DNA of 64,000 nt, taken from contig JAQDNC010000001.1 in assembly GCA_027660625.1 (NCBI GenBank), positions 1-64,000 on the forward strand, in the 5' to 3' direction. The notes under the pieces were generated by a model. That model did no database searches. It was not told the DNA's origin and saw nothing but the letters and a program-made list of their open reading frames with translations. This stretch comes from Coriobacteriaceae bacterium AM100-PB1-1D-6A (lineage in GTDB: Bacteria > Actinomycetota > Coriobacteriia > Coriobacteriales > Coriobacteriaceae). The translations under genes were made by a program, and so were the position numbers. This document shows positions 3,686 to 43,276 of this stretch, piece after piece. Position 1 is the first letter of the stretch; the number at the start of each line of letters is the position of its first letter.

Positions 3686-3730
3686 CCACCACATGTCACC
3701 ACAAGGGGGACAGGCACCTTTGTGGTGGTT
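3686..3730 (+). repeat. GGGGACAGG-core palindromic element (copy F) abutting the lgt stop
   Basis: CACCACAA and TTGTGGTG flank a core reading GGGGGACAGGCACCT. The element begins directly after the lgt TAG. It shares its core with the elements at 6016-6059 and 43244-43276, but its stem sequence is different and still self-complementary. Confidence 0.7.
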
Positions 3731-3756
3731 TTGCCGGGCAACGATGACAGAACCGT

Positions 3757-3813
3757 AACGTTTCCCCAGATAAAACCTGCCAAAATAAACCTGTCCCTTT
3801 TTGGCAGGTTTCT
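3757..3813 (-). repeat. CCTGCCAAAA/GGGACAGG element (copy C, inverted)
   Basis: Read on the minus strand this is almost identical over about 52 bases to copies at 8642-8693 and 35558-35611. It has CCTGCCAAAA and TTTTGGCAGG arms around AGGGACAGGTTTA, then the tail TTTTATCTGGGGAAACGTT. It lies 20 bases before the next gene, between lgt and the DUF6020-like gene. Confidence 0.8.
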
Positions 3814-3831
3814 AGAAAGGCTATTCGGACT

Positions 3832-6015
3832 GTGAAGGATTCCGACCTCTCCGCAACGGCTGCGCGCGACGCCGCCCGCATCGTTTGGTTTAAGCGCTAT
3901 CCCGCCAAGCAGACGCTCATCGCATTTTTGCTCGCGCTGTTGGCGACCACGGCGTTTTCCATCGATCCCGCCCCGGTGTCGAGCAACGCAGTCTTGGCAA
4001 TTGACCCCAAAGCCTCGGGCATGCTGTACGTGTGCTACGAGGTGCTCCTCTCGTTTGCCGGCCATACCGACGCGGTCATGCTGCTTGCGCTTGCCTGCCT
4101 GCTTACGCTGCCGTTTCGCTACGTATTCTTTGGCCGCGGTGACGCTTGGCGCCCGTCGGTCGTGCTGCCATCGCTGTTCTTTGCCGTTTGCATGGTGTTC
4201 GGCCGTAGCTACGACCTTACCGATTCGGCAGAGATTGTGCTGGGCGACAAGGCACGCGTTATCTGCGCCTGGATTGGCGGCGCGGGCTGGATGCTTCTGG
4301 CGATTGTGGCCTTCTATCTGGCTTTTGAGTTTTTGGATTGGTTGAGCTCCCGCCGCATTCCGTTTTCGGAGACCCACTTTGGTCGCGTGTGGCGTGTTGC
4401 CCACGCCGTGCTCTCGGTCCATCCCTTTGTCGGGCCGTTTCTTGTGCTCATGATTGCCTGGGCGCCCACGCTTATCGCCTCGCTGCCCGGCCTCTTTATG
4501 GGAGATACGGGCGCGCAGATCCGCCAATGGTTCAACTACCCCAACGGCACGAGCGATTACCTGCGCCTGCTTAACCCCAACGTGCTGCTCAACGGCCATC
4601 ATCCGGTGGTGCACACGGCCATCATCGGCTCGTGCGTGCAACTGGGGCTTTCGCTGTTCAATAGCGCCAATGCGGGCCTTGCCATCTACACCTGTGCCCA
4701 ATTTGTCATCACGGCCGCCTGCATGGCCTATTCCATATCGTCGCTGCGCAAGCTGGGCGTGAGCCTGCCGGTCCGTGGCGTCACCTTGCTGTTCTTTGCG
4801 TTTATGCCGATGTTCTCCAACTATGCGGCGCTGCTGACCAAAGACGTGCTGTTTGCCGATGCGTTTTTGGTGCTGCTCGTTCAGACCGTCAAGCTCGTGG
4901 CATGTGGCCTGCCCCGTCGCGATGCCAATGCCAAGCGCGCGGGCGAACAGGCGCCTGTGCTCTTTGCACGCCACGACTGGCTGTTGCTCGTGCTGGGTGC
5001 CATGGGTTCCACGTTTTTGCGCAATGGCGGCCTGGTCTTTCCGTTGGCGGCCTGCGTGATTGCGGCGGCGTTTTGCGCTTGGGACGCGCATGTGGCCCGT
5101 CGCGTGGCCAAACAGTCTGGCGTCACGCCCTCGTACGCCACGCCACGCTTCCGCTGGGTCGGCGTGCTCGCAGTGCTTGCGCTCTGCCTTGTCTCCAACA
5201 TGTATTTCACCAAGGTCTTTATGCCGGCGCACGATATCACGCCGGGCTCCAAGCGCGAGATCCTCTCGATTCCGTTTCAGCAGACGGCGCGCTTCGTCCA
5301 AAAGCACGACGGCCTTAATTCGGGCGTTAACCCCAAGGTCAAAGACGATGGCACGATTGAGGAAGCTCCCTGCGACGGCTTGGTGACCGATGAGGAGCAC
5401 GCTGTGATTGATCGCGTGCTTAAGTACGAGAACCTGGGTCGTCGCTACAACCCCGACAAATCGGATGCCGTCAAAAACTGCTTCAATGAGTACGCCTCGC
5501 AGGAGGACATCAAGGCCTATTTTAAGGTGTGGGCCCAGATGTTCAAAAAGGACCCCGAGTGCTATATCTCGGCGCTCATCAATAACTATTACGGGTACTT
5601 CTATCCAAGTGCTCGCGATGCGTGGGTCTACAGCACCGCGCGCAGTGCCGAGATCATGGCGAAGCCCGATAACCTCAAGTACTTTGACTTCCATCCGGTC
5701 GATAGCAAAGCCGTGCGCTGGTGCGACCACCTGATTAACCTGTACCGCGTGGCGGTGCAGCGCATCCCGTTTATCTCGCTCACCATGAGCTCGGCCACTT
5801 ACGTGTGGATTATGATCGCCGTGGTGGTCTACCTGTTGCGTCGCCATTCGTGGCGCGCGCTGGCCATCTGGATACCGCTGCTGGGTGTGCTCGCCGTGTG
5901 CCTGATCGGTCCATGTAACGGATCGACCTACATGCGCTACCTGTACCCAGTCATTGCATGCATGCCCTTCGCCATCGGTGCCACGATCACCCGCAGCGAC
6001 CTCCTCTGGGCCTAG
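3832..6015 (+). CDS. Large multi-pass membrane protein (DUF6020-like)
   Basis: This 727-residue integral membrane protein has about ten to twelve hydrophobic helices between residues 25 and 455. A soluble, presumably extracellular, domain follows (about 460-640, with FFNEYASQ-type polar sequence and several Tyr and Cys). Two more helices lie near the C-terminus (about 660-725). The arrangement and the motifs LFMGDTGAQIRQWFN and NGHHPVVHTAIIG match the DUF6020 family of Actinobacteria and Firmicutes. These look like GT-C-fold, lipid-linked-sugar glycosyltransferase-like proteins, but no activity is proven. The start is GTG at 3832, with GAAAGG 12 bases before it. It is a single-gene unit, with repeat elements on both sides. 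Confidence 0.65.
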   Translation: MKDSDLSATAARDAARIVWFKRYPAKQTLIAFLLALLATTAFSIDPAPVSSNAVLAIDPKASGMLYVCYEVLLSFAGHTDAVMLLALACLLTLPFRYVFFGRGDAWRPSVVLPSLFFAVCMVFGRSYDLTDSAEIVLGDKARVICAWIGGAGWMLLAIVAFYLAFEFLDWLSSRRIPFSETHFGRVWRVAHAVLSVHPFVGPFLVLMIAWAPTLIASLPGLFMGDTGAQIRQWFNYPNGTSDYLRLLNPNVLLNGHHPVVHTAIIGSCVQLGLSLFNSANAGLAIYTCAQFVITAACMAYSISSLRKLGVSLPVRGVTLLFFAFMPMFSNYAALLTKDVLFADAFLVLLVQTVKLVACGLPRRDANAKRAGEQAPVLFARHDWLLLVLGAMGSTFLRNGGLVFPLAACVIAAAFCAWDAHVARRVAKQSGVTPSYATPRFRWVGVLAVLALCLVSNMYFTKVFMPAHDITPGSKREILSIPFQQTARFVQKHDGLNSGVNPKVKDDGTIEEAPCDGLVTDEEHAVIDRVLKYENLGRRYNPDKSDAVKNCFNEYASQEDIKAYFKVWAQMFKKDPECYISALINNYYGYFYPSARDAWVYSTARSAEIMAKPDNLKYFDFHPVDSKAVRWCDHLINLYRVAVQRIPFISLTMSSATYVWIMIAVVVYLLRRHSWRALAIWIPLLGVLAVCLIGPCNGSTYMRYLYPVIACMPFAIGATITRSDLLWA

Positions 6016-6059
6016 CCCAAGATTGGCATATCGGGGACAGGTTGCTTTGCGCCAAGGGG
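6016..6059 (+). repeat. GGGGACAGG-core element (copy D) abutting a stop codon
   Basis: Directly after the TAG of the DUF6020-like gene comes TTGGCATAT, then CGGGGACAGGTTGCT, then TTGCGCCAA. The stem is degenerate compared with the perfect copy at 43244-43276, but the core and the position relative to the stop are the same. Confidence 0.6.
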
Positions 6060-6186
6060 CTGCATCATCACGACGCCTTCATTTTGGGGTTTATCTTGCA
6101 GGCCGGTAGGTATATCATAACGACGTTTGTTTATATTGCCCGAGCATCCACGCTGGGCTTTAGGTCGAAACCGATAGGAGACACGT

Positions 6187-6993
6187 ATGTCCGGACACTC
6201 TAAGTGGGCCACAACCAAGCATCGTAAGGGCGCGCAGGACGCCAAGCGTTCCGCCCTCTTCTCCAAGCTCAGCCGCAACATCACCGTTGCTGCCCGTCTC
6301 GGCGGCGACCCGCTGCCCGAGAACAACGCCAGCCTTGCCGCTGCCGTCGCTAAGGCCAAGGCTCAGTCCATGCCTAAGGACAAGATCAAGTCCGCTATCG
6401 ATAAGGCCTTTGGTTCGGGTGCCGATGCCGCCGTCTACGAGAACATCGTGTACGAGGGCTACGGTCCCGCCGGTGTCGCCGTCTACGTCGACTGCCTGAC
6501 CGACAACCGCAACCGCACTGCTGCCGACGTCCGTTCCGCCTTCTCCCACGCTGGTGGCAACCTGGGCACCTCCGGTTCCGTCGCCTTCCAGTTTGAGCGC
6601 AAGGGCCAGATCGTCGTTGCCAAGGAGGTCCTGGACGAGAACGCCAAGAAGGAGACCATGATCGCCAACGGTGCTGCCGGTGACGAGGATGAGTTCATGA
6701 TGGCCATCGCCGAGGCCGGTGGCGAGGACTACGAGGACGCCGGCGAGGAGTGGATCGTCTGGACCGCTGCCAACGACGTCATGGCTGTCTCCAAGGCGCT
6801 CGAGGAGCAGGGCATCCAGGTCAAGGGCTCCGAGACCACCATGGTCCCGACCACCCCGACCGAGGTCTCCGGTGCTGACGCCAAGAAGGTTCAGCGCCTC
6901 ATCGACCGTCTTGAGGAGCTCGACGACGTCCAGGACGTCTACAGCACCATGGACATGACCGACGAGGTCATCGCTGCCCTCGAGGAGGAGTAG
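6187..6993 (+). CDS. yebC: YebC/PmpR-family regulator or translation factor
   Basis: This is a cytosolic protein of the YebC family. Members were first described as DNA-binding regulators and more recently as factors that help ribosomes through polyproline stretches. The 268-residue product begins with the near-invariant MSGHSKWATTKHRKGAQDAKR. It keeps the domain 2-3 pattern YEGYGPAGVAVYVDCLTDNRNRT in order (split here only by description). An acidic insert near residues 155-185 makes it slightly longer than the usual 240-250. The start ATG is preceded by AGGAG. In many bacteria the gene sits next to ruvC, but not here. A strong terminator follows at 7063-7104. Confidence 0.93.
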   Translation: MSGHSKWATTKHRKGAQDAKRSALFSKLSRNITVAARLGGDPLPENNASLAAAVAKAKAQSMPKDKIKSAIDKAFGSGADAAVYENIVYEGYGPAGVAVYVDCLTDNRNRTAADVRSAFSHAGGNLGTSGSVAFQFERKGQIVVAKEVLDENAKKETMIANGAAGDEDEFMMAIAEAGGEDYEDAGEEWIVWTAANDVMAVSKALEEQGIQVKGSETTMVPTTPTEVSGADAKKVQRLIDRLEELDDVQDVYSTMDMTDEVIAALEEE

Positions 6994-7062
6994 CGCCAGC
7001 ACGGATTGAGCCGTGCATATCTGGGCATAATGAAGCGAGCATGCAAGCCTCGTGGAATAGAT

Positions 7063-7104
7063 GAGCCGGATCCGCGTGCATGAGGCACCGGACCCGGCTC
7101 TTTT
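7063..7104 (+). terminator. Rho-independent terminator after yebC
   Basis: GAGCCGG and CCGGCTC pair across about 24 bases and are followed by TTTT. Confidence 0.75.
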
Positions 7105-7159
7105 ATAATGATGCGAATCGTTTTGCATTCTGAGGATCGAGATTTGAAGGGAGCGCCGC

Positions 7160-7705
7160 ATGCGCGTGCTCAAACGAGCCCTAGCGATCGTGTATCTTGC
7201 CGCCGCCATCGTGGCGCTGGGTACGCTTGTCTGCCAGTTCTGGGGACCGTATACGTATCGCTTTATGTTGCTGTTGCGTGACACCATGCCTCGCGTCGTC
7301 GTTACGGCGTGCGCCGCCATCGTGGCACTTGGCGTGCTCATCGGTTTTTTCCGCCTGATGTTCGCGCGTCGCGAGCCGTCCTGCGTGCATCCGGCGGGGG
7401 AGCGCAATATCGAGGTTACGCTCGCAGCGCTTTCCTCGTGCGCCCGTGCCGCGGCGGAGTGCGATGATCGCGTGATGGTTGAGCATATCGAGGCGCGCGT
7501 TCAAGGCTCCGACGAGTCGCGCGTTCGTTTTAAGGTCGAGGCCATCGCGCTCGATGATAAAGACGTCGCCTCTCTTGTCACCGCGATGCAGCAGCGCATC
7601 GAGAAAGCCTGCGACACCATGCTCGGCACGCCGGGCACGACCGCGCGCGTCCGTTTTTTGCCGTCCAAGACTACCGTCCAGACCGTGGAGGTTTCCGGTG
7701 AGTGA
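7160..7705 (+). CDS. AmaP-like membrane anchor of the Asp23 envelope-stress cluster
   Basis: This 181-residue protein has two N-terminal membrane helices (about residues 8-30 and 45-65) in a hairpin, then a soluble alpha/beta domain. That is the layout of AmaP, which tethers Asp23/Gls24 proteins to the membrane in Gram-positives. Sequence identity to AmaP is not obvious by eye. The call rests on topology and on the next two genes, a DUF2273 protein and an Asp23 protein, which are the classic partners. Its stop overlaps the start of the DUF2273 gene by 8 bases, so translational coupling is likely. The ribosome-binding site AAGGGAG precedes the ATG. Confidence 0.7.
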   Translation: MRVLKRALAIVYLAAAIVALGTLVCQFWGPYTYRFMLLLRDTMPRVVVTACAAIVALGVLIGFFRLMFARREPSCVHPAGERNIEVTLAALSSCARAAAECDDRVMVEHIEARVQGSDESRVRFKVEAIALDDKDVASLVTAMQQRIEKACDTMLGTPGTTARVRFLPSKTTVQTVEVSGE

Positions 7706-8075
7706 TACCAACCAAGACAAGACCGCCCGCACGCCGCGCCTGACGATCGACCAGAACGCTACGCCGGCAGGCGAGTCCGCCGACACCAAGCCCGAGGCCG
7801 GCGAGCAGCACGACAGCGCCGCTAATGACTTTGACGAGGCCATGGGTCTCATCAAAGGTACGGGCGCTGCTATCTGGAGCTACGCCGTGCGCCACCCCAA
7901 CACTACGCTCGGTGCCGTGGCAGGCTTTATCCTCGCCGTGCTGGTACTTACATTGGGCCTGTGGGACACGCTCGTCATCGCATTCTTTGTGTTGATCGGC
8001 GCCGTGATCGGCCAGATTCGCGACGGCGAGAACGGTATCGTCAACTTCTTCGGCCGTCTGTTTAGCGGCCGCTAA
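7698..8075 (+). CDS. DUF2273 small membrane protein
   Basis: This 125-residue protein has a polar, probably disordered N-terminus (1-60). One helical hairpin of membrane segments follows at about 68-108, and a short tail NFFGRLFSGR closes it. This is the DUF2273 pattern found beside asp23 and amaP. The GTG start at 7698 overlaps the end of the AmaP-like gene (stop at 7705), with the GGAGG at 7687-7691 serving as ribosome-binding site. It probably helps to anchor the Asp23 layer at the membrane. Confidence 0.75.
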   Translation: MSDTNQDKTARTPRLTIDQNATPAGESADTKPEAGEQHDSAANDFDEAMGLIKGTGAAIWSYAVRHPNTTLGAVAGFILAVLVLTLGLWDTLVIAFFVLIGAVIGQIRDGENGIVNFFGRLFSGR

Positions 8076-8119
8076 TACGTATTCGACTGTCGCATCCGCG
8101 GCAGGCATAAGGAGGAACC

Positions 8120-8641
8120 ATGGCTTTTAACACGAAGGTCGATGTGGCCGATACCGAGCTCGAGGCGAACGAGGCCGTCGCCGCCGAGGCGGAGGACGTA
8201 ACGCTCGAGGACGAGACGCTCGTCGAGGCCGAGTCCAAAGACGAGGCGGACGAGGACGACGAGGAGGCGGACGAGTCCGAGGACTCGCTGACCTATTCCA
8301 ACGGCGTGATCGAGAAGATCGTCGCCATGGCCACCCGCGAGGTGCCGCACGTTCTGGGCATGAAGGGTAACCTTATGCACTTTGTGCAGGAGCAGTTTGG
8401 TGCCGAGAACCTGACCAAGGGCGTGACGGTCGAGGTCACCGACGACAACCGCGTGGTCGTCAACATCTCGGTCATCATCGAGTATGGCGCCTATGCGCCT
8501 GCGATCTTTGACGACGTTAAGGCGCGCGTCACCGAGCGTCTGGCCGCGATGACCGGCCTTGAGGTGGCAGGCGTCAACCTGCGCATCGAGGATGTCATCA
8601 CCCCCGAGGAGTACGAGCACCGCACCAGCCAGCACGAGTAA
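8120..8641 (+). CDS. Asp23/Gls24 family envelope stress protein
   Basis: This is an abundant cytosolic, membrane-tethered protein family linked to cell-envelope homeostasis. The 173-residue product has a strikingly acidic N-terminal extension (residues 15-58, mostly Glu, Asp and Ala). The conserved Asp23 domain then spans about 60-165 (YSNGVIEKIVAMATREVPHV, then VEVTDDNRVVVNISVIIEYG in order). The start is ATG after AAGGAGGA. It is the last gene of the cluster with the AmaP-like and DUF2273 genes. A GGGACAGG repeat begins at the base after its stop, and a strong terminator follows at 8696. Confidence 0.9.
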   Translation: MAFNTKVDVADTELEANEAVAAEAEDVTLEDETLVEAESKDEADEDDEEADESEDSLTYSNGVIEKIVAMATREVPHVLGMKGNLMHFVQEQFGAENLTKGVTVEVTDDNRVVVNISVIIEYGAYAPAIFDDVKARVTERLAAMTGLEVAGVNLRIEDVITPEEYEHRTSQHE

Positions 8642-8693
8642 CCTACCAAAAAGGGACAGGTTTGTTTTGGCAGGTTTTATCTGCGTAAACGTC
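8642..8693 (+). repeat. CCTGCCAAAA/GGGACAGG element (copy A) abutting the asp23 stop
   Basis: It begins one base after the stop codon. It matches copy B at 35558-35611 and inverted copy C at 3757-3813, including the tail TTTTATCTGCGTAAACGTC. The left arm has one change (CCTACC for CCTGCC). Confidence 0.8.
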
Positions 8694-8695
8694 AA

Positions 8696-8734
8696 ACGGC
8701 CGGTCGCGCATGTAAAAGCGCGGCCGGCCGTTTT
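8696..8734 (+). terminator. Terminator of the Asp23 cluster
   Basis: ACGGCCGGTCGCGC pairs with GCGCGGCCGGCCGT (one bulge) around an 8-base loop and is followed by TTTTC. Confidence 0.8.
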
Positions 8735-8848
8735 CTATATGCCTTCGATGCGGTCATACCGCTCGTCTAACTAAGGGTTGCAATCTTCGCGTTCCGCGTT
8801 ACCCTAATGGGCGCATTGTTTCCAAATTGTTAACGAGGGGTTGCCGTA

Positions 8849-9871
8849 ATGGCCGACGAACACGAGACCGAAAGCAAGGCATGGGCGATTGAGGCCGCTG
8901 CGGCAGAGGCGGCGTCGCGTGCTGCCGAGGAAGTGCATCGTCCTCCCGTAGTGCCGATGGAGCGCGTGGTCGATCGCGATGTTATTGAGCAAGGCGAGCG
9001 CGCCGGCCGCAAGCGCAGCCAGGAGCCAGGCTTTCCGCGCTTTTTTGCCGAGCTCAATCTGGGCCTGATCCTCACGGCGTTCGCCATCGTGGCCTTTAAA
9101 ACCCCCAATCACTTTGCCTTCGGCGGCACCTCGGGCGTGTCGGTCATTCTTTCCACGCTGTTCCCGACTCTGCCCGTCGGCGTCTTTATGTGGATTATCA
9201 ACGCGGTCCTGGTCGTTCTGGGCTTTATCTTTTTGGAGCGCAAGGCAATCCTTTGGAGCGTCTTTGCCTCGTTTGCGCTTTCGGCCTACGTCTCGCTGTT
9301 TGAGCTCTTCATTCCGACCGATGTCTCTCTGACGGGTGATATGTGGCTCGACCTGTGCTTTGCCGTCATCTTGCCGGCGCTCGGCAGCGCTATTGTCTTT
9401 GACATCGGCGCCTCGACGGGTGGCACGGACATTCTTGCCATGATCCTCAAACGCCGCACCACGCTTGAGATTGGCCGCGCGCTGCTGCTGGTCGATATCG
9501 GCATCGTAACCATCGCGGCTTTCCTGTATGGCCCGCGCGTTGGCCTGTACTGCGTGCTTGGCCTGTTTGCCAAGACGCTCGTGGTCGATAAGGCTATCGA
9601 GAGCATTCACCTTCGTAAGGTCTGCACGATTATTTGCGCCGAACCGCGCAAAGTCGAGGAGTTTATCGTCAAGCATCTCAACCGCACGGCAACGATCAGC
9701 CGTGGCTACGGCGCCTTCTCGGGCAAGTGCGTCACGGTGATTATGAGCGTGCTGAGCCGTCGCGAGGCAGTGCAGCTGCGCCGCTATACCCGCGAGATTG
9801 ACCCCGGTGCCTTCATCACCATCGTCGATAGCTCCGAGATCGTGGGCAAGGGCTTCCGCGGCACGAACTAG
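8849..9871 (+). CDS. YitT family membrane protein (DUF161 + DUF2179)
   Basis: This 340-residue protein has a polar N-terminal extension of about 65 residues. Five or six membrane helices follow (about 70-245) with the conserved loop FGGTSGVSVIL and the DIGASTGGTDILAMIL motif. A soluble C-terminal DUF2179 domain (about 258-335) contains TISRGYGAFSG. The YitT family is widespread and its transport or regulatory function is unproven. The N-terminal extension is longer than in Bacillus homologues. The ATG at 8849 follows a GAGGGG site. It is a monocistronic unit between a terminator and a 150-base gap. Confidence 0.88.
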   Translation: MADEHETESKAWAIEAAAAEAASRAAEEVHRPPVVPMERVVDRDVIEQGERAGRKRSQEPGFPRFFAELNLGLILTAFAIVAFKTPNHFAFGGTSGVSVILSTLFPTLPVGVFMWIINAVLVVLGFIFLERKAILWSVFASFALSAYVSLFELFIPTDVSLTGDMWLDLCFAVILPALGSAIVFDIGASTGGTDILAMILKRRTTLEIGRALLLVDIGIVTIAAFLYGPRVGLYCVLGLFAKTLVVDKAIESIHLRKVCTIICAEPRKVEEFIVKHLNRTATISRGYGAFSGKCVTVIMSVLSRREAVQLRRYTREIDPGAFITIVDSSEIVGKGFRGTN

Positions 9872-10021
9872 CGCGGACGTACCCTTCGAATCATTGAATA
9901 AAGCCGTCTACGTTGCAAATCGGCCATCTTGGAGTATTTGTCCCCACATTGGGCGATAATGTTGCCAAAGACATCGTTTGCGATCCAGGTGATTCGCTCT
10001 AGATACGAAGGGATGATTTCG

Positions 10022-11389
10022 ATGTTCTGTTCGCAGTGTGGCGCCCCCATGGGCGATAACGACAAGTTCTGCGGCGTGTGCGGTGCCCCTAATACCGAGG
10101 TCAAGGCCGCCGGCCCCGCTCCGCAAGCTCAACCTCAGCCGCAGGGTCAGCCGTTTGCCCAACCGCAGCCGCAGCCGTTCGTTGCGCCCCAGCCGGCTAT
10201 GAGCGTGCCCAAGGGCTGCATGGCGCAGGCCTTCAACGACATGATTAAGGTTCCCGGCGCCCTGGTTCGCGTATGTCAGATTGCCTTTTTGCCGGCGCTG
10301 ATCTGCGTCGTGTCGGTGCTGGTGCTGTTTATCCCCGTTATCGGTGGCATCGCGGCGGCCATTGGCTTTTTGCTCGCTTACGTGGCAAGCGTGTGCGGCG
10401 CTGGCTTTGCTATCGAGTGGGGTCGCGACCTGTCGCTCAAGGACGATAACGGCATGGAGCGTCCGCTGCTGCGCTCGACCTCCTTTGGACTGGGCATCTT
10501 CTCGTCTGTCATTACGAACGTGCTCGGGTTCGTGGCCATTATTCCAGTGATTGGCGTGGTGTTCTCGGTGCTTGAGAGCGCTGTGATCGGTGCTGTCGGT
10601 TCGTACTATTACTTCGGTTCGAGCGGCCTCGAGGGCGCACTCATCGGGTCGATGGGTCTGCTTGTCTTTGCCATGATCGTATCGGCGGTGTTGGGCATCT
10701 TCTTTAAGATGTTTGGCGATGCCGCTGTGATGCACTTTGCAGTCGCCGGCCGCGTGGAAAGCGCGTTTTCGCTCGAGAAGGTTTGGAAGTCCTATAAGGC
10801 CAACCTGGGCAAGTTGTTCTGCGCATCGATTCTCCCCGAGTTTTTGACGGGCATTGTTTCCAATATCATCACCTGGATTTTCACCGCCATCTTTGGTTTT
10901 GTTGCCGCGCTGGGCATTAGCAGCTATGGCTACTACGGCTACTATTCTCGTCCTTCGGGTCTTGAGGCAATCATCGAGGGTGGCGGCATTACGCTCATCC
11001 TGTTCCTGATGATCATCGCCTTTGTCACCGTGTTCCTGAATGTGTTTGGCACGATGCTCAAATATCGTGCCGTTGGCTACTGGGCCGCGCGCCATGCCAG
11101 CGGGTGGGCCGATGAGGATACCGATGATGTCCTGACGTTTGTGCTCCCGGGTGAGAAGAAGCCTGCTCCTGCGGGGTTCAATCCCACGGCCGCCACTGGC
11201 GCTGCACCTGCCCCGGCACCCGCGCCTGCACCTGCTCCGGCACCTGCCCCGGCACCCGCGCCGGCGCCTGCTCCGGCACCTGCCCCTGCGCCCGAGGCGA
11301 CGCCTGCGGAACCCGATTGGAATGCCGTTGCCACGCCGGCGGATGAGCCGGGCGATGATCCTGCTGCCGAAAACAATCAAACCGAATAG
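10022..11389 (+). CDS. Zinc-ribbon multi-pass membrane protein with Ala-Pro tail
   Basis: This 455-residue protein begins with a zinc ribbon (Cys 3, 6, 17 and 20 in MFCSQCG and FCGVCG). A Pro/Gln-rich linker runs to about residue 60, and six or so membrane helices lie between about 75 and 350. An Ala-Pro repeat tail (about 395-425) and an acidic end follow. The ATG at 10022 was preferred over one at 10013 because AAGGG sits about 10 bases before it and because the neighbour at 11585 starts with the same MFC motif. The domain order resembles DUF4013-type membrane proteins with added zinc ribbons. The function is unknown. It is probably paralogous in design to the next gene. Confidence 0.7.
   Translation: MFCSQCGAPMGDNDKFCGVCGAPNTEVKAAGPAPQAQPQPQGQPFAQPQPQPFVAPQPAMSVPKGCMAQAFNDMIKVPGALVRVCQIAFLPALICVVSVLVLFIPVIGGIAAAIGFLLAYVASVCGAGFAIEWGRDLSLKDDNGMERPLLRSTSFGLGIFSSVITNVLGFVAIIPVIGVVFSVLESAVIGAVGSYYYFGSSGLEGALIGSMGLLVFAMIVSAVLGIFFKMFGDAAVMHFAVAGRVESAFSLEKVWKSYKANLGKLFCASILPEFLTGIVSNIITWIFTAIFGFVAALGISSYGYYGYYSRPSGLEAIIEGGGITLILFLMIIAFVTVFLNVFGTMLKYRAVGYWAARHASGWADEDTDDVLTFVLPGEKKPAPAGFNPTAATGAAPAPAPAPAPAPAPAPAPAPAPAPAPAPAPEATPAEPDWNAVATPADEPGDDPAAENNQTE
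11200..11291 (+). repeat. Degenerate Ala-Pro coding repeat
   Basis: About 15 consecutive Ala-Pro codon pairs use mixed synonymous codons (GCACCT, GCCCCG, GCGCCT). The repeat is kept at protein level more than at DNA level, so it is selected as a rigid linker or tail rather than being recent slippage. Confidence 0.7.
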
Positions 11390-11396
11390 CCGGTCG

Positions 11397-11432
11397 AGGC
11401 GCCCTGGGCAACTGAGCCCGGGGTGCCTTTTT
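11397..11432 (+). terminator. Terminator after the zinc-ribbon protein gene
   Basis: An imperfect stem AGGCGCCCTGGGC / GCCCGGGGTGCCT with a 4-7 base loop is followed by TTTTTC. Confidence 0.75.
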
Positions 11433-11584
11433 CTACTGCGAAAGCAAGAAAATGCCTGGGAAAACGGTTGCAGCAAAATTTCTCGGAAATTGGTCAATGT
11501 TGCGCAACAACGTCGCGGCTATTGTTGAGAACGTAGACGTGTAAGGTTTGAAGGCGTGCGACGCCTTAGGAAAAGGAGAGGCTC

Positions 11585-12193
11585 ATGTTCTGTCCCACTT
11601 GTGGTTCTCCCATTTCGGATGATGCCAAATTCTGCCCTGTTTGCGGATCCGCCGTTGGTGCCGCTTCTGCCGCTGCGGCCCCGCAGCCCCAGCCCGCTCC
11701 GGCCCAGGCTATTCAGCCCGCGCCCCAGCCTCAGCAGCAGTACACCGGTCAATACGCCCAACAGTCCGCATCCGCTCCGATGGGCTATGACCCCATTAAG
11801 GCTGACCGCAGCCTGATCGGCTGGCTGCTGCTCTCTCTTGTGACCTGCGGTATCTATTCGTTCTACTTCCTGTATTGCTTGGCACGCGACGTCAACACGT
11901 TGTGTCAGGATGACGGCGATTACACGCCGGGTCTGGCGGAATTCATCCTTCTATCGTTTGTGACCTGCGGCTTCTACGCGTACTACTGGTATTACAAGAT
12001 TGGCAACCGCCTGCAGGCCAACGCTCCTCGCTACGGCCTGGTGTTCCAGGAAAACGGCACCACCGTTCTTCTGTGGCAGATTGTCGGCGCGCTCCTGTGC
12101 GGCCTTGGTCCCATCTTCGCTATGAACATCGTCATCAATAATACCAATGCCATGGCAACGGCTTACAACACTCGCCTTGGCGCTCGTGCCTAA
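11585..12193 (+). CDS. Zinc-ribbon DUF4234 membrane protein
   Basis: This 202-residue protein starts with a zinc ribbon of the same Cys spacing (3, 6, 17, 20) as the preceding gene. A Pro/Gln/Ala-rich linker follows (25-65), then a DUF4234-type membrane domain (about 72-190) with two copies of a V-T-C-G-x-Y/F helix motif (LLLSLVTCGIYSFYFLY and ILLSFVTCGFYAYYWYY). The start ATG follows AAAAGGAGAGG. The role is unknown. The shared zinc ribbon suggests that the two proteins act together or arose by domain shuffling. The DUF2752 gene begins only 13 bases downstream. Confidence 0.8.
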   Translation: MFCPTCGSPISDDAKFCPVCGSAVGAASAAAAPQPQPAPAQAIQPAPQPQQQYTGQYAQQSASAPMGYDPIKADRSLIGWLLLSLVTCGIYSFYFLYCLARDVNTLCQDDGDYTPGLAEFILLSFVTCGFYAYYWYYKIGNRLQANAPRYGLVFQENGTTVLLWQIVGALLCGLGPIFAMNIVINNTNAMATAYNTRLGARA

Positions 12194-12206
12194 CAATAAG
12201 GGCGGC

Positions 12207-12683
12207 GTGAACAGCTTCCAGGGACATAGGGGCACGGCAGAGCTCCTTCGCCGCGCCCTTTTTTGCACCGGCGCGCTCTTTGTCGCCTGGCTCGCGCTCT
12301 ACCTGCTCGACATTGGCTGCATTTTTCGATTGATGACGGGCATTCCTTGTCCGGGATGCGGCATGACGAGGGCGTGGCTGGCGGCGCTGCGCCTCGATTA
12401 TGCGGCTGCCTTTGCCTACCATCCGCTGTTTTGGGTGGTGCCGATTGCGTTTGTGCTCGCGTTCGTGCGCGAGGAGGTGGCATCGAGCAAGCTAAAGCGT
12501 GGTATCGACATTGCGGTCACCGTGTTGTGCGTGCTGGTCGTCGTCGTATGGATCGTGCGCCTCGTCAATCCGGCAGATGCCGGTCTGCTCTTTGGCGGCT
12601 ATGCGCCCGCCGGAGTTCCCGACGATATCATCCACCTCGAACCCCCACGCTGGCTCACCATCCTTCGCTCTTACCTGGCGTGA
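12207..12683 (+). CDS. DUF2752 membrane protein
   Basis: This small membrane protein (158 residues from the chosen start) has helices at about 17-40, 72-90 and 100-120. The DUF2752 signature PCPGCGMTRAWLAAL lies at about residues 47-61; its Cys pair is the hallmark. The start is uncertain. GTG at 12207 has AAGGGCGG just upstream and avoids overlap with the DUF4234 gene, whereas an in-frame ATG at 12147 would overlap by 47 bases. DUF2752 genes often follow DUF4234 or TM2-type zinc-ribbon genes, as here. The function is unknown. Confidence 0.75.
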   Translation: MNSFQGHRGTAELLRRALFCTGALFVAWLALYLLDIGCIFRLMTGIPCPGCGMTRAWLAALRLDYAAAFAYHPLFWVVPIAFVLAFVREEVASSKLKRGIDIAVTVLCVLVVVVWIVRLVNPADAGLLFGGYAPAGVPDDIIHLEPPRWLTILRSYLA

Positions 12684-12716
12684 CGGAGGACGCGCTAGAA
12701 AAACGGTCGACACATA

Positions 12717-12755
12717 AGCGGGGGCGAACGTTGAGATAACGTCCGCCCCCGCTTT
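12717..12755. terminator. Bidirectional terminator between convergent genes
   Basis: AGCGGGGGCGAACGTT pairs with AACGTCCGCCCCCGCT (one mismatch) around GAGAT. It sits between the DUF2752 gene and the convergent M20 gene, so it probably serves both strands. Confidence 0.75.
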
Positions 12756-12789
12756 GCTTTAGCCAGGCTGTTATGGATGGGCGTGACGG

Positions 12790-14253
12790 CTACTCGTCGC
12801 GCTTTTCCTCGTGGCGAGCGGCAGCCCGCGCATCGTGGATGCCCTTGATTGCAGCATGGCGGGCGGTGCGAGCATCGTGCATGGCGTCGCGGGCTTCGGC
12901 AGCCGTGGCCTTGGCAGAGCGCAGCTTGGCCGCCAAGTCGGGGTTGGTCTCGGCAACCGCGGCGATCGTGGGGCCGTCGAGCTCCTCTTGCGTGGGCTCG
13001 GCCAAAAAGTCGATGGCATACTGGGCGGCTACCATGGAGCCCTTGGCCAGTACCGACTCGTCAATCTTGTAGAAGCAAGAATGCTGGGCGTACGTGGCGC
13101 CAATCTGGGGGTTGCGCGTGCCAACAAAGGCGAGCACGCCCGGCACGCGGCGCAGATACTCCGAGAAGTCCTCGCCTGAAAGCGTACCGCGATAATGGCC
13201 CTCGCCGGCTGCACCCAGGCACTTGAGCACAGCTTGGCGGCAGCGCTCGCTCGAGGCGGCATCGTTTTCGACCTTGTAGTTGGCGATGGTGTAATCGGTA
13301 AGCTCGGCCTCGGCGCCCAGGGCTGCCGCGGTGTGCTCCACGATGCGGCGCATGAGCTCGGGCATTTCCTCGTGCGTCCTGTCGCCATAGGTGCGTACCG
13401 TGCCGGCAAGGTAGGCCGTGCCGGCAATGACGTTGCGCGCGGTGCCGCCATGGAGCTCGCCGACGGTGATGACGGCAGGCTCGTAGGGGCTGATTTCACG
13501 CGAGACGATGGTCTGCAGGGCGTTGACGATTTCTGCCGCCACCATAACGGCGTCGTGGCCGCGCTGGGGCATGGCGCCGTGGCATGAGGTGCCGCGGACG
13601 TCGATGCGGAACCAGTCGGTATTGGCCATGCGCGGGCCGGGCTCGCAGCTCACGGTGCCGGCGTCGACCTCGCTCCAAATGTGTGCGGCATAGGCGCCAT
13701 CGACGCCATCGAGCACGCCGGTGCCGATCATGAGCTTGGCGCCCTGGCCGTTTTCCTCGCTGGGCTGGAACACGATGCGGATCTCGCCGTGGATGTCATC
13801 GGTCATGTGGCGCAGGATCTGCAGCGTGCCGAGCATCATGGCGATATGACAGTCGTGACCGCAGGCGTGCATGCAACCCTCATTGACGCTGGCGAACTCC
13901 TCGCCGGTCTGCTCGGTGACGGGCAGGGCGTCGATATCGGCGCGCAGCAGGATACGGCGGCGCGGCGTGCCGTCCTCGCGGTAGGCATCCGGCGCGGTAC
14001 CGCGAAGCGTTGCCACCAAGCCGGTCTTGAGCGGACGCTCGTAGGGGATATTCATGGCGTCGAGCTGGTTGGCGATGTCGGAGGTCGTGCGCTCCTCGGC
14101 AAGGCTCAGCTCCGGGTGCTTATGGAAGTGCCGGCGCTGCTTGATGATATAGGGTTCAAACTCGGTGGCAATATCTCGGATGGCCGCGGTGACGTCGTCT
14201 GCCGCGCGAACCTCGGTTGCCGCCATAATCTGCTGTGCCTTGGTCTTCGTCAT
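12790..14253 (-). CDS. M20-family amidohydrolase/peptidase (IAA-amino-acid hydrolase type)
   Basis: This 487-residue metallo-amidase is of the M20D/AbgB-HipO type, cleaving N-acyl amino acids or similar amides. RRHFHKHPELSLAE (about 36-50), ADIDALPV (about 105) and the metal ligands CMHACGHDCH (about 122-131) are family motifs, as are EENGQGA, SCHGAMPQ and the C-terminal SGEDFSEYL. The last 65 residues form a charged Ala/Arg/Glu helical tail beyond the usual end at about 420; that extension is unusual. The start ATG is preceded by AAGGAGC. It diverges from the YtcJ-type amidohydrolase at 14410 across a 156-base gap, so the two may form a functional pair with shared control. Confidence 0.88.
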   Translation of the reverse strand: MTKTKAQQIMAATEVRAADDVTAAIRDIATEFEPYIIKQRRHFHKHPELSLAEERTTSDIANQLDAMNIPYERPLKTGLVATLRGTAPDAYREDGTPRRRILLRADIDALPVTEQTGEEFASVNEGCMHACGHDCHIAMMLGTLQILRHMTDDIHGEIRIVFQPSEENGQGAKLMIGTGVLDGVDGAYAAHIWSEVDAGTVSCEPGPRMANTDWFRIDVRGTSCHGAMPQRGHDAVMVAAEIVNALQTIVSREISPYEPAVITVGELHGGTARNVIAGTAYLAGTVRTYGDRTHEEMPELMRRIVEHTAAALGAEAELTDYTIANYKVENDAASSERCRQAVLKCLGAAGEGHYRGTLSGEDFSEYLRRVPGVLAFVGTRNPQIGATYAQHSCFYKIDESVLAKGSMVAAQYAIDFLAEPTQEELDGPTIAAVAETNPDLAAKLRSAKATAAEARDAMHDARTARHAAIKGIHDARAAARHEEKRDE

Positions 14254-14409
14254 GGTCGATTTGCTCCTTGCTGGCTCGATCGCAAAATCGTACAGGCTCT
14301 CTCCAGTATGCCACCTGCCGCTAGGGCTGGTAAAGTTGCCGTTTGCCGCTTGGGGTTTTGTTGCAAGGGCGGGGGAGTACACTCGGGGGTGTTGAATTAC
14401 CTGCCAGAG

Positions 14410-16059: not shown

Positions 16060-16076
16060 CCCCATACCCCACCCAT

Positions 16077-16109
16077 AAGGGGGCACGTTTCAGCAACGTG
16101 CCCCCTTCT
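16077..16109 (+). terminator. Terminator after the YtcJ-like gene
   Basis: AAGGGGGCACGTT and AACGTGCCCCCTT form a 13-bp perfect stem around a short loop. The following run is TTCTTG, so it is also usable from the other strand. Confidence 0.75.
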
Positions 16110-16147
16110 TGTTCGCACCATCCGCATCGCCATTTTGCTGTACTGAC

Positions 16148-16368
16148 TTTTCTGAATGCCGGGCCCGAATTAGTTAACCTGGCTCCCGTGTGGCTCCGGA
16201 GGGGCGGGGCATAAGGTTTATCGCGAGTTCCGCACGAGCCGAAGGCCACTTAATGTGGCCTTCGTGCGAGCAGGACTGCCCGAGCAGGAAACCTTATGCC
16301 CCGCCCCTCCGGAGCCACACGGGAGCCACCGCTAAGTTATTCCCCGGCATTCAGAAAATCTAAGTGCC
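16148..16368. repeat. 221-bp giant imperfect palindrome upstream of groES
   Basis: A perfect 40-bp inverted repeat (16180-16219 with 16289-16328, beginning TGGCTCCCGTGTGGCTCC) is embedded in longer imperfect arms. These extend out to TTTTCTGAATGCC (16148) and GGCATTCAGAAAA (to 16368). The centre holds a further stem, GAAGGCCAC / GTGGCCTTC. No ORF of note lies in it. It fills most of the 437-base gap between the YtcJ-like gene and groES. It could be a mobile-element relic, a transcript-stabilising hairpin or a protein-binding site. Confidence 0.85.
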
Positions 16369-16455
16369 AAAAAATAAGATTTTTTGACTCTGTGTTGTAT
16401 AACCCGTCATTCGTGGGTACCATTCAACGCGTACGCAAACAAAAAAGGGTTAATT

Positions 16456-16474
16456 CGCGTGGCATAACCACGCG
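16456..16474 (+). promoter_or_regulatory. Hairpin just upstream of the groES ribosome-binding site
   Basis: CGCGTGG, loop CATAA, CCACGCG lies 6 bases before AAAAAGGAGGAG. Neither a CIRCE (TTAGCACTC-N9-GAGTGCTAA) nor a HAIR operator (CTTGAGT-N7-ACTCAAG) is visible upstream of groES. This hairpin and the giant palindrome are the only clear structures there. Confidence 0.4.
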
Positions 16475-16496
16475 GCCCAAAAAGGAGGAGACAAGC

Positions 16497-16790: not shown

Positions 16791-16808
16791 TCTCGTCAGA
16801 CTCTCTGA

Positions 16809-18524
<1,716 letters not shown>

Positions 18525-18550
18525 GGCCGACAAGGTCTAGAACTCCCACC

Positions 18551-18862: not shown

Positions 18863-18890
18863 TTGCGCGAAAACCTGCCCGTGCTACACT
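18863..18890 (+). promoter_or_regulatory. Promoter of the riboflavin uptake operon
   Basis: TTGCGC at 18863 and TACACT at 18885 lie 16 bases apart. They are placed so that transcription would begin just before the FMN aptamer. Confidence 0.5.
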
Positions 18891-28981: not shown

Positions 28982-29057
28982 TGGTGGGCGATGAGGGATT
29001 CGAACCCCCAGCCTTGTGCGTGTAAAGCACCTGCGCTAACCGTTGCGCCAATCGCCC
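28982..29057 (-). tRNA. tRNA-Val (anticodon UAC)
   Basis: On the minus strand the acceptor GGGCGAT pairs with ATCGCCC. The anticodon loop TTTACAC gives UAC, the T-arm is GGGGGTTCGAATCCCTC, and discriminator A is followed by an encoded CCA. It lies between the MITE-like region and asnB. Confidence 0.96.
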
Positions 29058-34831: not shown

Positions 34832-35557
34832 ATGGAATACATGCAGGTCAACCGCGCCAACGGCCGCGCCGCAAACGAGCTGCGCCCCGTTAAGCTCACC
34901 CGCGGCGTCATGAAGCACGCCCACGGCTCGTGCCTGGCGGAGTTCGGCGACACGCGCGTACTGTGCGCCGCCACCATCGAGGAGGGTGTGCCGGGTTGGC
35001 GCAAGGGCGCCAAGGCCGGCTGGGTAACGGCGGAATATGCGATGCTGCCGGCCTCGACCGGTAAACGCTGCAAGCGCGAGCATGCCAGCCGCAAGGGCCG
35101 CTCCATGGAGATCGAGCGGCTTATCGGCCGCAGCCTGCGTACCGTCGTCAACATGAAGGCGCTCGGCGAGTACACCGTTACCGTCGACTGCGATGTGATC
35201 CAGGCCGATGGCGGCACGCGTACGGCGAGCATTACCGGTGCCTGGTTGGCGCTGCACGACGCCCTTGCCATGTGGGTCGAGGCGGGAAAACTCGAGCGCA
35301 TCCCGCTCACGGGCCAGGTTGCCGCCATTTCCATGGGCGTCGTCGACGGCAACACCCTGCTCGACTTGGATTATTCCGAGGACAGCCACGCCGAGGTCGA
35401 CATGAACCTCGTCGCCACCGATTCCGGTGAGATGATCGAACTCCAGGGTACCGGCGAGCAGGCGCCCTTCGATCGCAAGCGTCTCAACGCCCTACTCGAC
35501 CTGGGTGACAAGGGTATCGCCGAGCTCATCGAGCTTCAGCGCCAAGCCCTCGCCTAA
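34832..35557 (+). CDS. rph: Ribonuclease PH
   Basis: This is a phosphorolytic 3'-5' exoribonuclease that trims tRNA precursors. The 241-residue product begins with [20 protein letters not shown] and carries [17 protein letters not shown], the conserved Arg-rich [17 protein letters not shown] and the phosphate-site EYAMLPAST. The ATG at 34832 has GAAAGGAT 8 bases upstream. It is the typical neighbour of murI and rdgB in actinobacteria, and the same order appears here. A GGGACAGG repeat element starts directly after its stop. Confidence 0.96.
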
Positions 35558-35613
35558 CCTGCCAAAAAGGGACAGGTTTTTTTTGGCAGGTTTTATCTGG
35601 GAAAACGTCGAAG
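35558..35613 (+). repeat. CCTGCCAAAA/GGGACAGG element (copy B) abutting the rph stop
   Basis: CCTGCCAAAAAGGGACAGG, T-run, TTTTGGCAGG, then TTTTATCTGGGAAAACGTC begins at the base after the rph TAA. It is near-identical to copies at 8642 and (inverted) 3757. Confidence 0.82.
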
Positions 35614-38170: not shown

Positions 38171-38247
38171 CGGGTTGTGGCTCAGTTTGGTAGAGCACTG
38201 CGTTCGGGACGCAGGGGTCGCTGGTTCAAATCCAGTCAACCCGACCA
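38171..38247 (+). tRNA. tRNA-Pro (anticodon CGG)
   Basis: The acceptor CGGGTTG pairs with CAACCCG. The anticodon stem-loop CTGCG TTCGGGA CGCAG gives CGG, the T-arm is CTGGTTCAAATCCAG, and A plus an encoded CCA ends it. A strong terminator follows within 12 bases. Confidence 0.97.
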
Positions 38248-41374: not shown

Positions 41375-41545
41375 CACCTTGCCTCAAATGCGACCCGCTC
41401 GCTGACTTATGCTCAACCTGCGGCGCCATTTTGCTTGAAGGCACCTTGCTCGCTCTGGCGGGCTTTCGCTGTCCGTCCTCTACCTGCGGCGTTGCCCTGG
41501 TTGGCACTTAGGGACGTTCCTCTTGTGCCGGCACTTGGGGACGGT
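41375..41545. repeat. Gene-free repeat cluster with GGGACG elements
   Basis: Two diverged direct units share CACCTTGC at the start and ACCTGCGGCG at the end (about 41375-41428 and 41442-41494). They are followed by GGCAC-TTAGGGACGTTCCT-C-TTGTGCC and a second GGCACTTGGGGACGGTCCT. No ORF here is convincing. Confidence 0.55.
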
Positions 41546-41674
41546 CCTAGCCGCCTGGGGTCTACCGGTGCATTGGGGGTTTACGCCTTCCGTGCATGAC
41601 AGTCGTCTCTTTTATGTTTCCTTTAGCCGTCGCTGCCTAGGATGGGGGTTAGTCGGTAGGAAGGGAGCGTCTGT

Positions 41675-43243
41675 ATGGACGACGCGAGCGATCGTGCAAT
41701 CGAAGAGGACATGCTCAATCAGTTCAACTATTTTGATGATGAGGACGAGGAGCCGATCGACCGTCGCGAGCCGGCATCGCTTGACTCATTTGACCTAGTG
41801 GGTGAAGGGGCTGATGAGGTTGAGAATGAATCGACGGAACCCCCACAGCCTTCGCGCCCCGACCCGCTGCTTTCGAGAATCTCTTTGCACCACGGTGTCC
41901 GTGCCGGCGCCCTCCATATGAAAACCGACTGGCGCCAGATCGTGACGGCGGGCGATGAGCTTGCCGTCGATGCGCCGCTCACCGATAAGTCATCCATCAT
42001 CTGCCGCACCGGTATGCTTATGCTCGCGAGCGGAACGGGTGCCTGGCGTGTACGCGATACCATGAATCGCGTTGCCGCCGTACTCGGTGTCACCGTCCAC
42101 GTTGACTTAAGTCTTCTGTCGTTTGAGTGCACCTGCATCGAAGATGGCCACTGCTTTAACGAGGTTGTCAGCCTGCCCACAACGGGAGTCAATACCCATC
42201 GCATTTGGATGATGGAGAGCTTCCTAAAGGAAATCGAGACGTATGGGCGCCGGTTTACCGTGCACGAATACCACGAGATGCTCAAGACCGTTGAGAGTTC
42301 AAAACCCGATTACTCTCCCTGGCAACAGGGCCTTGCGGCAGCTTGTGCTTGCGGCGCCTTCGTCTTTTTGCTCGGCGGCGGCCCTATCGAGATGGCCTGC
42401 GCATTCGTAGGCGCTGGTGTTGGCAACTTTGCTCGCTCTCATATTCTCAAGCAGGGTCTTGGCCAGTTTAGCGCGCTGACGATTGGCGTTGCGCTCGCTT
42501 GCGTTTCGTATCTGCTGGCATTGCTCGGCCTTGGCCAGGTCGTACCGGGGGCAATGTCGCACCAAGAAGGCTATATCGGCGCCATGCTCTTTGTGATTCC
42601 CGGCTTTCCCCTCATTACGGCAGGCCTCGACATCGCTAAGCTCGACATGCGAAGCGGCATTGAGCGTCTTTCGTATGCTGTGTCGATTATTGTGATGGCG
42701 ACGCTCGTAGGTTGGATGGTTGCCGAGTGTGTTGGCCTGGCGCCGGACGACTTTGCGCCGCTCGGCCTTTCGCCGCTTGCCCTTACGCTCTTGCGCGTGG
42801 TAATGAGCTTCGTTGGCGTATTCGGCTTCTCAGTGATGTTCAACAGCCCGGTAAAGATGGCCACGGCAGCTGGGCTGATCGGCGCCGTGTCCAATACCCT
42901 TCGTCTGACCCTTGTCGATGGGCCGACGATGCTTCCCTTCCTGGGCCTCAGCGCGGGAATGCCTCCCGAGGCGGCTGCATTTATCGGGGCGCTCGTATCG
43001 GGTTTGCTGGCAAGCCTGGCAGAAATCAGGCTCACCTACCCACGTATCGCCCTCACGGTGCCATCGATTGTCATTATGGTGCCGGGCTTGTATCTGTATC
43101 GCTCGATGTATTACATGTGCACCTTCGACACGGTCAATATGCTCGGCTGGTTTGTGCGTGCAGTGCTCATCGTGGCGTTTCTGCCCGTTGGGCTGGGTGT
43201 GGCGCGCACCCTCACCGACCCTCGCTGGCGCCATACCAGCTAA
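41675..43243 (+). CDS. Threonine/serine exporter family protein (ThrE-like)
   Basis: This 522-residue protein of the ThrE family exports small amino acids such as threonine or serine. An acidic N-terminus (1-70) precedes the soluble DUF1212-type domain (about 75-205, with IICRTGMLMLASGTGAWRVRDTMNR in order). About ten membrane helices follow (210-515), including FVIPGFPLITAGLDIAKLDMRSG and PSIVIMVPGLYLYR, both family-typical. In Corynebacterium ThrE the two halves are likewise fused. ATG at 41675 follows GGAAGGGAG. A perfect GGGGACAGG-core palindrome begins at the base after its stop. Confidence 0.88.
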   Translation: MDDASDRAIEEDMLNQFNYFDDEDEEPIDRREPASLDSFDLVGEGADEVENESTEPPQPSRPDPLLSRISLHHGVRAGALHMKTDWRQIVTAGDELAVDAPLTDKSSIICRTGMLMLASGTGAWRVRDTMNRVAAVLGVTVHVDLSLLSFECTCIEDGHCFNEVVSLPTTGVNTHRIWMMESFLKEIETYGRRFTVHEYHEMLKTVESSKPDYSPWQQGLAAACACGAFVFLLGGGPIEMACAFVGAGVGNFARSHILKQGLGQFSALTIGVALACVSYLLALLGLGQVVPGAMSHQEGYIGAMLFVIPGFPLITAGLDIAKLDMRSGIERLSYAVSIIVMATLVGWMVAECVGLAPDDFAPLGLSPLALTLLRVVMSFVGVFGFSVMFNSPVKMATAAGLIGAVSNTLRLTLVDGPTMLPFLGLSAGMPPEAAAFIGALVSGLLASLAEIRLTYPRIALTVPSIVIMVPGLYLYRSMYYMCTFDTVNMLGWFVRAVLIVAFLPVGLGVARTLTDPRWRHTS

Positions 43244-43276
43244 TTGGTGCAAGGGGGACAGGTTACTTTGCACCAA
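43244..43276 (+). repeat. GGGGACAGG-core palindrome (copy E), perfect stem, abutting a stop codon
   Basis: TTGGTGCAA (43244-43252) and TTGCACCAA (43268-43276) are exact complements around GGGGGACAGGTTACT. The element starts at the base following the TAA of the ThrE-like gene. Confidence 0.85.

Follow-up and report, generated by a model that had tools for sequence, protein, structure and literature searches.

Loop-tagged hairpins in a coriobacterial genome and their association with Y1 transposase genes

Hairpins of three stem families in the window

We analyzed the first 64,000 nucleotides of contig JAQDNC010000001.1 from Coriobacteriaceae bacterium AM100-PB1-1D-6A (hereafter the window), which contains a set of short hairpins with the core GGGACAGG. 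Scanning both strands, we identified seven GGGACAGG sites, six of them in hairpins and one without a stem (Table 1). The six hairpins fall into three stem families, termed I, II, and III, and are accompanied by relatives with the core GGGACG. These hairpins are very probably non-autonomous repeats, analogous to repetitive extragenic palindromic (REP) elements, of HUH/Y1 transposases that resemble TnpA-Y1 subclass 2.1 (REP-associated tyrosine transposase (RAYT) group 1, TIRYT). Their association with such transposases is well supported by the inverted hairpin copies that flank transposase genes in related genomes. The genome nearest to the window, G001, shares 34% of sampled 31-mers with it, and we take the genus of the compared genomes to be Collinsella.

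Family I has the layout AACCTGCCAAAA-AGGGACAGGTTTA-TTTTGGCAGGTT, with the stem AACCTGCC..GGCAGGTT, and is present in three copies. Family II (CACCACAA..-GGGGACAGG-..TTGTGGTG) is present in one copy and family III (TTGGTGCAA..-GGGGACAGG-..TTGCACCAA) in two. The family III hairpin at 6023 is a decayed copy, because G001 (locus L062) has a perfect copy at the same place, immediately behind a TAA. For the family II hairpin at 3697, an alternative left arm, CCACCACA, lies at 3686-3693, immediately behind the stop codon.

A sequence-only reading of the window had described three palindromes placed at or near stop codons, with compensating changes in their stems, and a GGGACG version near 41503-41529. 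The hairpins at 3697-3727 and 43244-43276 proved real and that at 6023-6055 weak, while the three family I copies, the partial second GGGACG copy at 41529, and the decayed GGGACGG elements at 2332 and 57621 had been missed. The gaps from stop codon to paired left arm are 0 (43244), 7 (6023), and 11 nt (3697). The GGGACG version is likewise a real hairpin, and lies away from any stop codon since the nearest upstream called gene ends at 41256. The idea of compensating changes did not survive: the differing stems in the window are mostly separate repeat families, tied to transposases where a partner was found, and not one covarying stem.

Table 1. Hairpins and related elements in the window.
Feature	Position	Strand	Setting	Remarks
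Decayed element, same type as that at 57621 (TCAATTTGGGACGGGGC)	2332..2366	-		Stem score 3.5; no stable RNA fold
Family II hairpin, CACCACAAGG-gggacaggcac-CTTTGTGGTG	3697..3727	+	11 nt past TAG stop	Left flank partly decayed
Family I hairpin, AAACCTGCCAAAA-agggacaggttta-TTTTGGCAGGTTT	3773..3811	-		
Decayed family III hairpin, TTGGC/GCCAA	6023..6055	+	7 nt past TAG stop	Score 5; RNA fold z -0.24
Family I hairpin	8640..8676	+	First AA is AA of TAA stop 8639-8641	
Stemless GGGACAGG site	24941	-	Inside open frame 24789-26057	
Family I hairpin	35556..35592	+	First AA is AA of TAA stop 35555-35557	
GGGACG-type hairpin, GGCAC/GTGCC stem	41500..41532	+	Away from any stop codon	
Second GGGACG-type copy, partial	41529..41553	+		Score 4
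Family III hairpin, TTGGTGCAAGG-gggacaggtta-CTTTGCACCAA	43244..43276	+	0 nt past TAA	RNA fold z -4.32
Decayed GGGACGG-type element, AGCTAATTTGGGACGG	57621..57649	-		Stem score 4.5; no stable RNA fold

Inverted hairpins flank Y1 transposase genes

Short IS200-like genes aside, the Y1_Tnp genes of Collinsella encode proteins of ~250-350 aa with a C-terminal TGIG/helix-turn-helix (HTH)-like end. Among the loci listed, many of these genes have inverted hairpins on both sides, with a stem particular to the lineage and, in most cases, GGGAC in the loop. One lineage hairpin, GTAGCTA-atttGGGACGGggcttttt-TAGCTAC, is the type represented in the window by the decayed elements at 2332 and 57621. An intact form of the latter flanks transposase genes at L104 and L107; other examples are CTCAGA-ttaGGGACAGgcacttt-TCTGAG and GGGTTG-attgGGGACGtgttcnttc-CAACCC. 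Family I itself, in inverted orientation, flanks a Y1_Tnp gene in three genomes (G004, G009, and G034; loci L118-L120), with a truncated frame in G004. In a search of 346 Coriobacteriia genomes, 143 proved to have a relative of some kind, and only these three genes exceed 90% identity among the matches listed.

Flanks were read for 59 distinct genes of the 85 Y1_Tnp matches in the genus (61 rows, in which L116/L154 and L117/L128 are each one gene; L099 and L103 have no match with the transposase profile). A motif-blind search found a flanking inverted repeat with a score of at least 15 at 34/59 transposase loci, a count in which two genes enter the 59 twice, versus 1/78 ordinary genes of similar size. 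Cross-paired flanks reached the repeat threshold in 20/586 cases, orthologues among these. Sorted by catalytic residue, 32/43 loci with Tyr have a repeat, as do 0/15 with Ser and two of three in which the residue was unresolved. The correlation of Tyr with the repeat is weak evidence on its own, because the Ser loci comprise one main lineage plus L113, and four members of that lineage with an intact Tyr are likewise repeat-less.

The Ser-for-Tyr lineage, from the C. aerofaciens group, has a frame of up to ~348 aa (L031, L114, L115, L146, L150-L153, L157, and relatives). Several copies also have an altered HUH motif, and a flanking repeat is absent; judged by these features, the lineage is probably a dead or domesticated transposase. 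Elsewhere, palindromes with other cores occur at L133, L135, L143, and L144: GGGGTCAGACCCC (which fits GGGGWSAS), AGGGTCAGACCCT, GGTGCCAGGTAC, and AACCCCAGGGGTT. In G003, two family II copies in inverted orientation are separated by 0.96 kb, but a transposase between them was rejected; another gene lies there, and no transposase match at the locus was better than E 0.01.

Five proteins were scanned against profile collections. All five scored above the cut-off for PF01797, and for all five the best NCBIfam match was NF047646 (REP_Tyr_transpos), at 46-70 bits against a cut-off of 80. HTH models gave sub-cut-off matches in four of the five, and none in L120. The nearest solved structure was TnpA-REP 4er8 (E 0.0038). 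An alignment of 16 proteins shows the HUH motif, Y-I-H-x-N-P, and a C-terminal TGIG-like motif, with the Tyr missing from L031 and L113.

The hairpin core is more frequent than its reversed control. G001 contains 119 GGGACAGG sites versus 49 for the reversed control. Across the genus, AAARGGGACAGG reaches 23-68 copies in 25/43 genomes and 0-6 in the other 18 (reversed control, 0-2), and a Y1_Tnp match is present in 25/25 AAARGGGACAGG-rich genomes versus 12/18 others (Fisher p 0.003). The family II pattern occurs in 21/346 Coriobacteriia genomes, all 21 in this genus. Stem scores are two-peaked for the 107 GGGACAGG sites of the window and the G001 loci (100 listed of the 119 sites): high scores are nearly all intergenic, and most unpaired sites lie inside called genes, as judged by a simple codon-usage caller with some miscalls.

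A common loop with lineage-specific stems in other bacteria

A scan of named genomes with the 16-protein alignment matched at least 592 stretches, of which 538 were confirmed, and the best 80 were analyzed. These loci come from Coriobacteriia, Clostridia, Negativicutes, Halobacillus, one Bacteroidaceae metagenome-assembled genome, and a few further groups; the Collinsella loci among them number 12, some of which belong to the genus set as well. A flanking inverted repeat is present in 59 of the best 80 loci, containing GGGAC in 52, GGGGWSAS in one, GTCCC in one, and none of these in five. Similarly, 24 of the best 30 Coriobacteriia relatives of the family I protein (several already counted in other sets) have a repeat, 22 of them with GGGAC. 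Collapsing 141 loci at 70% protein identity yielded 89 clusters, 58 of which have GGGAC in the flanking repeat. Within these 58 the constancy of GGGAC is by construction, as it was required; in the 52/59 motif-blind repeats it is not.

The arms around this loop are private to each lineage. A pairing score of at least 6 was reached by a repeat's own arms in 41/58 clusters and by swapped arms in 327/3306 combinations (10%), with medians of 6.5 versus 3.5; the test used the best-pairing GGGAC per repeat, a slight bias toward own arms. Left arms share a mean identity of 25-35% between lineages in every protein-identity bin. Next to the core, position +6 is G in 51/58 clusters and position -1 is G in 40/58. 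We found no constant tetranucleotide (GTAG/GTGG) before the stem in these clusters; the common bases sit in the loop. The flanking repeat at L232 starts ACTGGTGCAAAGG, reminiscent of family III without GGGAC.

Many hairpins abut stop codons

In G001 and the window together, 19/54 intergenic hairpins have an upstream co-directional stop codon ending 11-14 nt before the core, so that it abuts or overlaps the arm. Random placement in the same spacers gave a mean of 1.5 and a maximum of 10 in 20,000 draws. By set, the counts are 16/49 in G001 (null mean 1.38), 11/53 in G003 (null mean 1.06), and 3/5 in the window; the 11-14 nt range was set after seeing the G001 distances and then used on G003, whose sites were picked by AAARGGGACAGG. 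These counts leave out hairpins with a stem score <5.5 (including the window copy at 6034), sites in called genes (two in G001), and sites without both neighbors. When sites with like upstream DNA were removed, 21/87 non-orthologous sites abut a stop codon, all of them TAA, compared to TAA in 165/336 background genes (Fisher p 7e-7). This confirms the docking of copies at stop codons that the sequence-only reading had described. TAA as a part of the element itself was rejected: of the 66 non-abutting sites, only two have TAA at the corresponding offset (-14 to -12 from the core).

Transposase-containing units dock in the same manner. An upstream co-directional frame end lies within reach in 43/58 clusters, taking whichever stop lay closest among open frames of 80 codons, and in 14/43 it is ≤6 nt from the left end of the element (binomial p 1e-8 under an assumed uniform spread). 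In 6/43 units, the stop codon is completed, or formed outright, by the opening letters of the element (e.g., T-AA, T-AG, T-GA, or TG-A, with the hyphen at the junction).

RNA structure and conservation of individual sites

We compared stems within families for paired changes. Among 35 distinct family II copies, six pairs changed on both sides, a weak signal reached by 8/500 shuffles. The 52 distinct family I copies gave one such pair, reached by 500/500 shuffles (shuffle mean 2.1), and 17/52 are unpaired at one stem position. Family I thus lacks covariation, the case that the sequence-only reading had named as contrary to its view, and covariation as proof of selection on RNA was rejected for family I and is weak for family II. 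As RNA, clear folds were obtained for two of eight stretches in the window (35556, z -3.0; 43241, z -4.3). A terminator scan of positions 1-20000 listed none, and cannot decide the matter because it permits loops of 3-8 nt and the elements have loops of 11 or more.

Matching sites were read in relatives. At the 35569 site, family I is present in 20/20 close relatives read, with the core decayed in some, and absent from 9/9 outgroup loci; in two of these (L208 and L211) the same gene is followed by a different GGGACG sequence. The 43244 site in 19 close relatives holds family III in 13 (some with an altered core), a short form in four, and a different GGGACG hairpin in two; neither family III nor a GGGACG hairpin is present in eight outgroup loci. 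The allele TTGGTGCAAATG at this site (L159, L161, L165, and L167) may represent an empty site, or it may have arisen by deletion between CAA repeats. At the L066 site, family I lies right at the stop codon in 17/20 close relatives, is lacking in L300, L308, and L312, which keep the TAA, and is missing from all 10 outgroup loci read. Just downstream, a second hairpin has the stem CCGCCGC..GCGGCGG in most relatives and CCACCAC..GTGGTGG in L308 and L312, a difference that would be explained either by compensatory changes at two pairs or by a family II copy having taken its place.

Relation to known repeat systems

The comparisons below draw on portions of the cited papers. In REP/RAYT systems, an HUH/Y1 gene is bordered by short palindromes that also occur dispersed between other genes, with each HUH/Y1 gene having its own repeat family (Nunvar et al, 2010, PMC2817692; PMC8266576). 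Flanking and dispersed short palindromes in gene-specific families are also seen here. The tag differs in position: REPs have GTAG/GTGG at the foot of the hairpin, while the elements described here have GGGAC in the loop. Most REPs of the GTAG and CGTC types are located less than 20 bp from 3′ ends, and the TAG stop is often provided by a GTAG terminus (Di Nocera et al, 2013, PMC3733652). Our elements share with GTAG REPs a high copy number, extragenic location, and proximity to 3′ ends, but their docking is exact in about a quarter of copies and families I-III use TAA. Because GTAG REPs are known to crowd behind genes and may supply the stop, docking is a shared property and not a unique one. 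Overall, RAYT-like genes exist in these genomes, many of them flanked by such elements, and together with the docking this agrees with the suggestion of the sequence-only reading that the palindromes are a coriobacterial counterpart of REPs.

Y1 transposase genes between inverted repeats have been described as TIRYTs or TIRtrons, in which some terminal inverted repeats (TIRs) have GGGGWSAS in common and some are self-complementary, forming dispersed families (PMC3733652). Here too a Y1 gene lies between inverted repeats, and GGGGACAG fits GGGGWSAS. The available parts of that paper treat the motif as part of long TIRs, whereas here it is mostly a hairpin loop with a lineage-specific stem (58/89 clusters). 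TnpA-Y1 subclass 2.1 equals RAYT group 1, the largest RAYT group with 292 of the sequences compared; 20/26 TIRYTs were placed there, with the consensus GGGG[AT][CG]A[CG] (Quentin et al, 2018, PMC6006769). Both in the available parts of that study and here, the Y1 proteins are long and have an HTH-like C-terminal end, and by length, C-terminus, and repeat motif our transposases appear to resemble subclass 2.1. In the same parts, REP-like sequences for subclass 2.1 were not found by automatic or manual search; in contrast, hairpin repeats are present here at most loci read. The main text of PMC3733652 does not contain the words Collinsella, Coriobacter, or GGGAC, nor that of PMC6006769 the words Collinsella or Coriobacter. 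A literature search covering few subscription journals found no paper giving loop-tagged hairpins as a rule of subclass 2.1, and a search on the bare motif gave no title about bacterial repeats among the matches listed.

Origin and placement of the hairpins

We propose a mechanism in which each transposase lineage would recognize a single-stranded DNA hairpin by a loop tag that is constant (GGGGACRG) and a stem specific to the lineage. The gene has one copy on either side, in inverted orientation, and solo copies have spread to intergenic sites, where in some cases the element opens with the last letters of a stop codon. We infer that the protein recognizes loop and stem and has mobilized the hairpins in the past, and that insertion or retention favors sites directly at the stop codon. 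A more specific form of this idea, to which we give only tentative credence, is that the address has two parts, one a loop word shared across the subclass (GGGGACRG) and the other a stem serving each lineage as its private key, with insertion aimed at stop codons so that elements and entire transposase units slot harmlessly behind genes and sometimes complete the stop. In the relatives of the window, families I-III are apparently for the most part relics passed down vertically: the family I transposase was found in just three genomes, and no cognate turned up for family II or III.

Several observations weigh against a transposase origin of the hairpins. We found no transposase gene in the window and observed no transposition events. 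Family II and III stems were not found in the flanking repeats listed for the Collinsella loci, the named-genome loci, or the best 30 class loci. A clear flanking repeat is absent in 21 of the best 80 named loci, and 31/89 clusters have no GGGAC in the flanking repeat. The L135, L143, and L144 transposase lineages have palindromes with other cores, and L108, L110, L111, and L127 keep the Tyr yet have no repeat, in a lineage that is elsewhere Tyr-less.

The elements might instead be primarily transcription terminators or mRNA 3′-end stabilizers kept by selection behind genes, with the transposase explaining their origin only. When the tagged strand is read as sense, the elements dock behind stops, and the left neighbor is a 3′ end in 35/54 copies. 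This orientation, the A-stem-T layout of families I and II, the two window stretches that fold clearly, the weak family II covariation, and retention at the 35569 site all fit such a role. We nevertheless consider it unlikely: family I shows no covariation and many of its copies are unpaired at one position, a gene start lies on the left side in 19/54 copies, and units that contain a transposase dock likewise. Alternatively, docking could result only from purging of insertions elsewhere, with an element that starts with A or AA regenerating a stop after its T. This has a modest chance of being right. It agrees with the 6/43 transposase units in which the element completes or forms the stop and with one site in eight genomes at which the gene's TAG stop lies inside a family I arm (frame read by eye). 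However, uniform placement predicts 1.4 (G001) and 1.1 (G003) abutting copies where 16/49 and 11/53 are seen, and insertions in the remainder of the spacer ought to do no more harm; moreover, the alleles of the L066 site without family I already have the TAA.

Two further explanations can be largely set aside. In size, palindromy, extragenic location, and flanking of HUH/Y1 genes the elements look like ordinary GTAG-tagged REPs, but the lack of a constant tetranucleotide before the stem, the common motif in the loop, and the scores of the five tested proteins, under the NCBIfam RAYT cut-off, make this very improbable. Chance similarity of short GC-rich motifs would account for GGGACAGG sites inside genes without a stem; it is close to untenable given the copy number versus control, the two-peaked stem scores, and the common positions in relatives, and is contradicted by the AAARGGGACAGG counts.

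If the hairpins are the partners of these transposases, a RAYT group for which an absence of REP-like partners has been reported acquires a substrate open to in vitro tests, and the REP idea broadens from a tag at the foot to a tag in the loop. The many lineage stems would then be a natural experiment on changes in hairpin specificity of one HUH fold. Stop-codon docking in distant lineages would be a target preference of interest.

Rearranged hairpins and other features

At Rfam gathering scores, the only matches in the window were an FMN riboswitch at 18896-19086 (+) and tRNA genes at 38171-38244 (+) and 28985-29057 (-).

Some sites carry rearranged copies. In 20 close relatives, the L081 site holds family II in one, family II with an inverted loop in six, and a loop-inverted copy with an insertion sequence (IS)-like insertion in the loop in one; eight others have family I in the arrangement with the TAG inside the arm noted above, and four have partial copies. 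At this site, L325 and the group L327, L328, L330-L332, and L338 have the same family II arms, and the loop of L325 runs the other way round from theirs. At L063:1509-1548, a chimera joins the left half of family I to the right half of family II, with the junction at GGGACAGG. Template switching at a palindrome would be consistent with both the inverted loops and the chimeras, and could also perfect stems without selection on RNA. In genome G018, an IS-like insertion starting TGTGAACTGC or TGAACTGC lies inside the loops of two different elements (L300 and L329), as if the loop were targeted.
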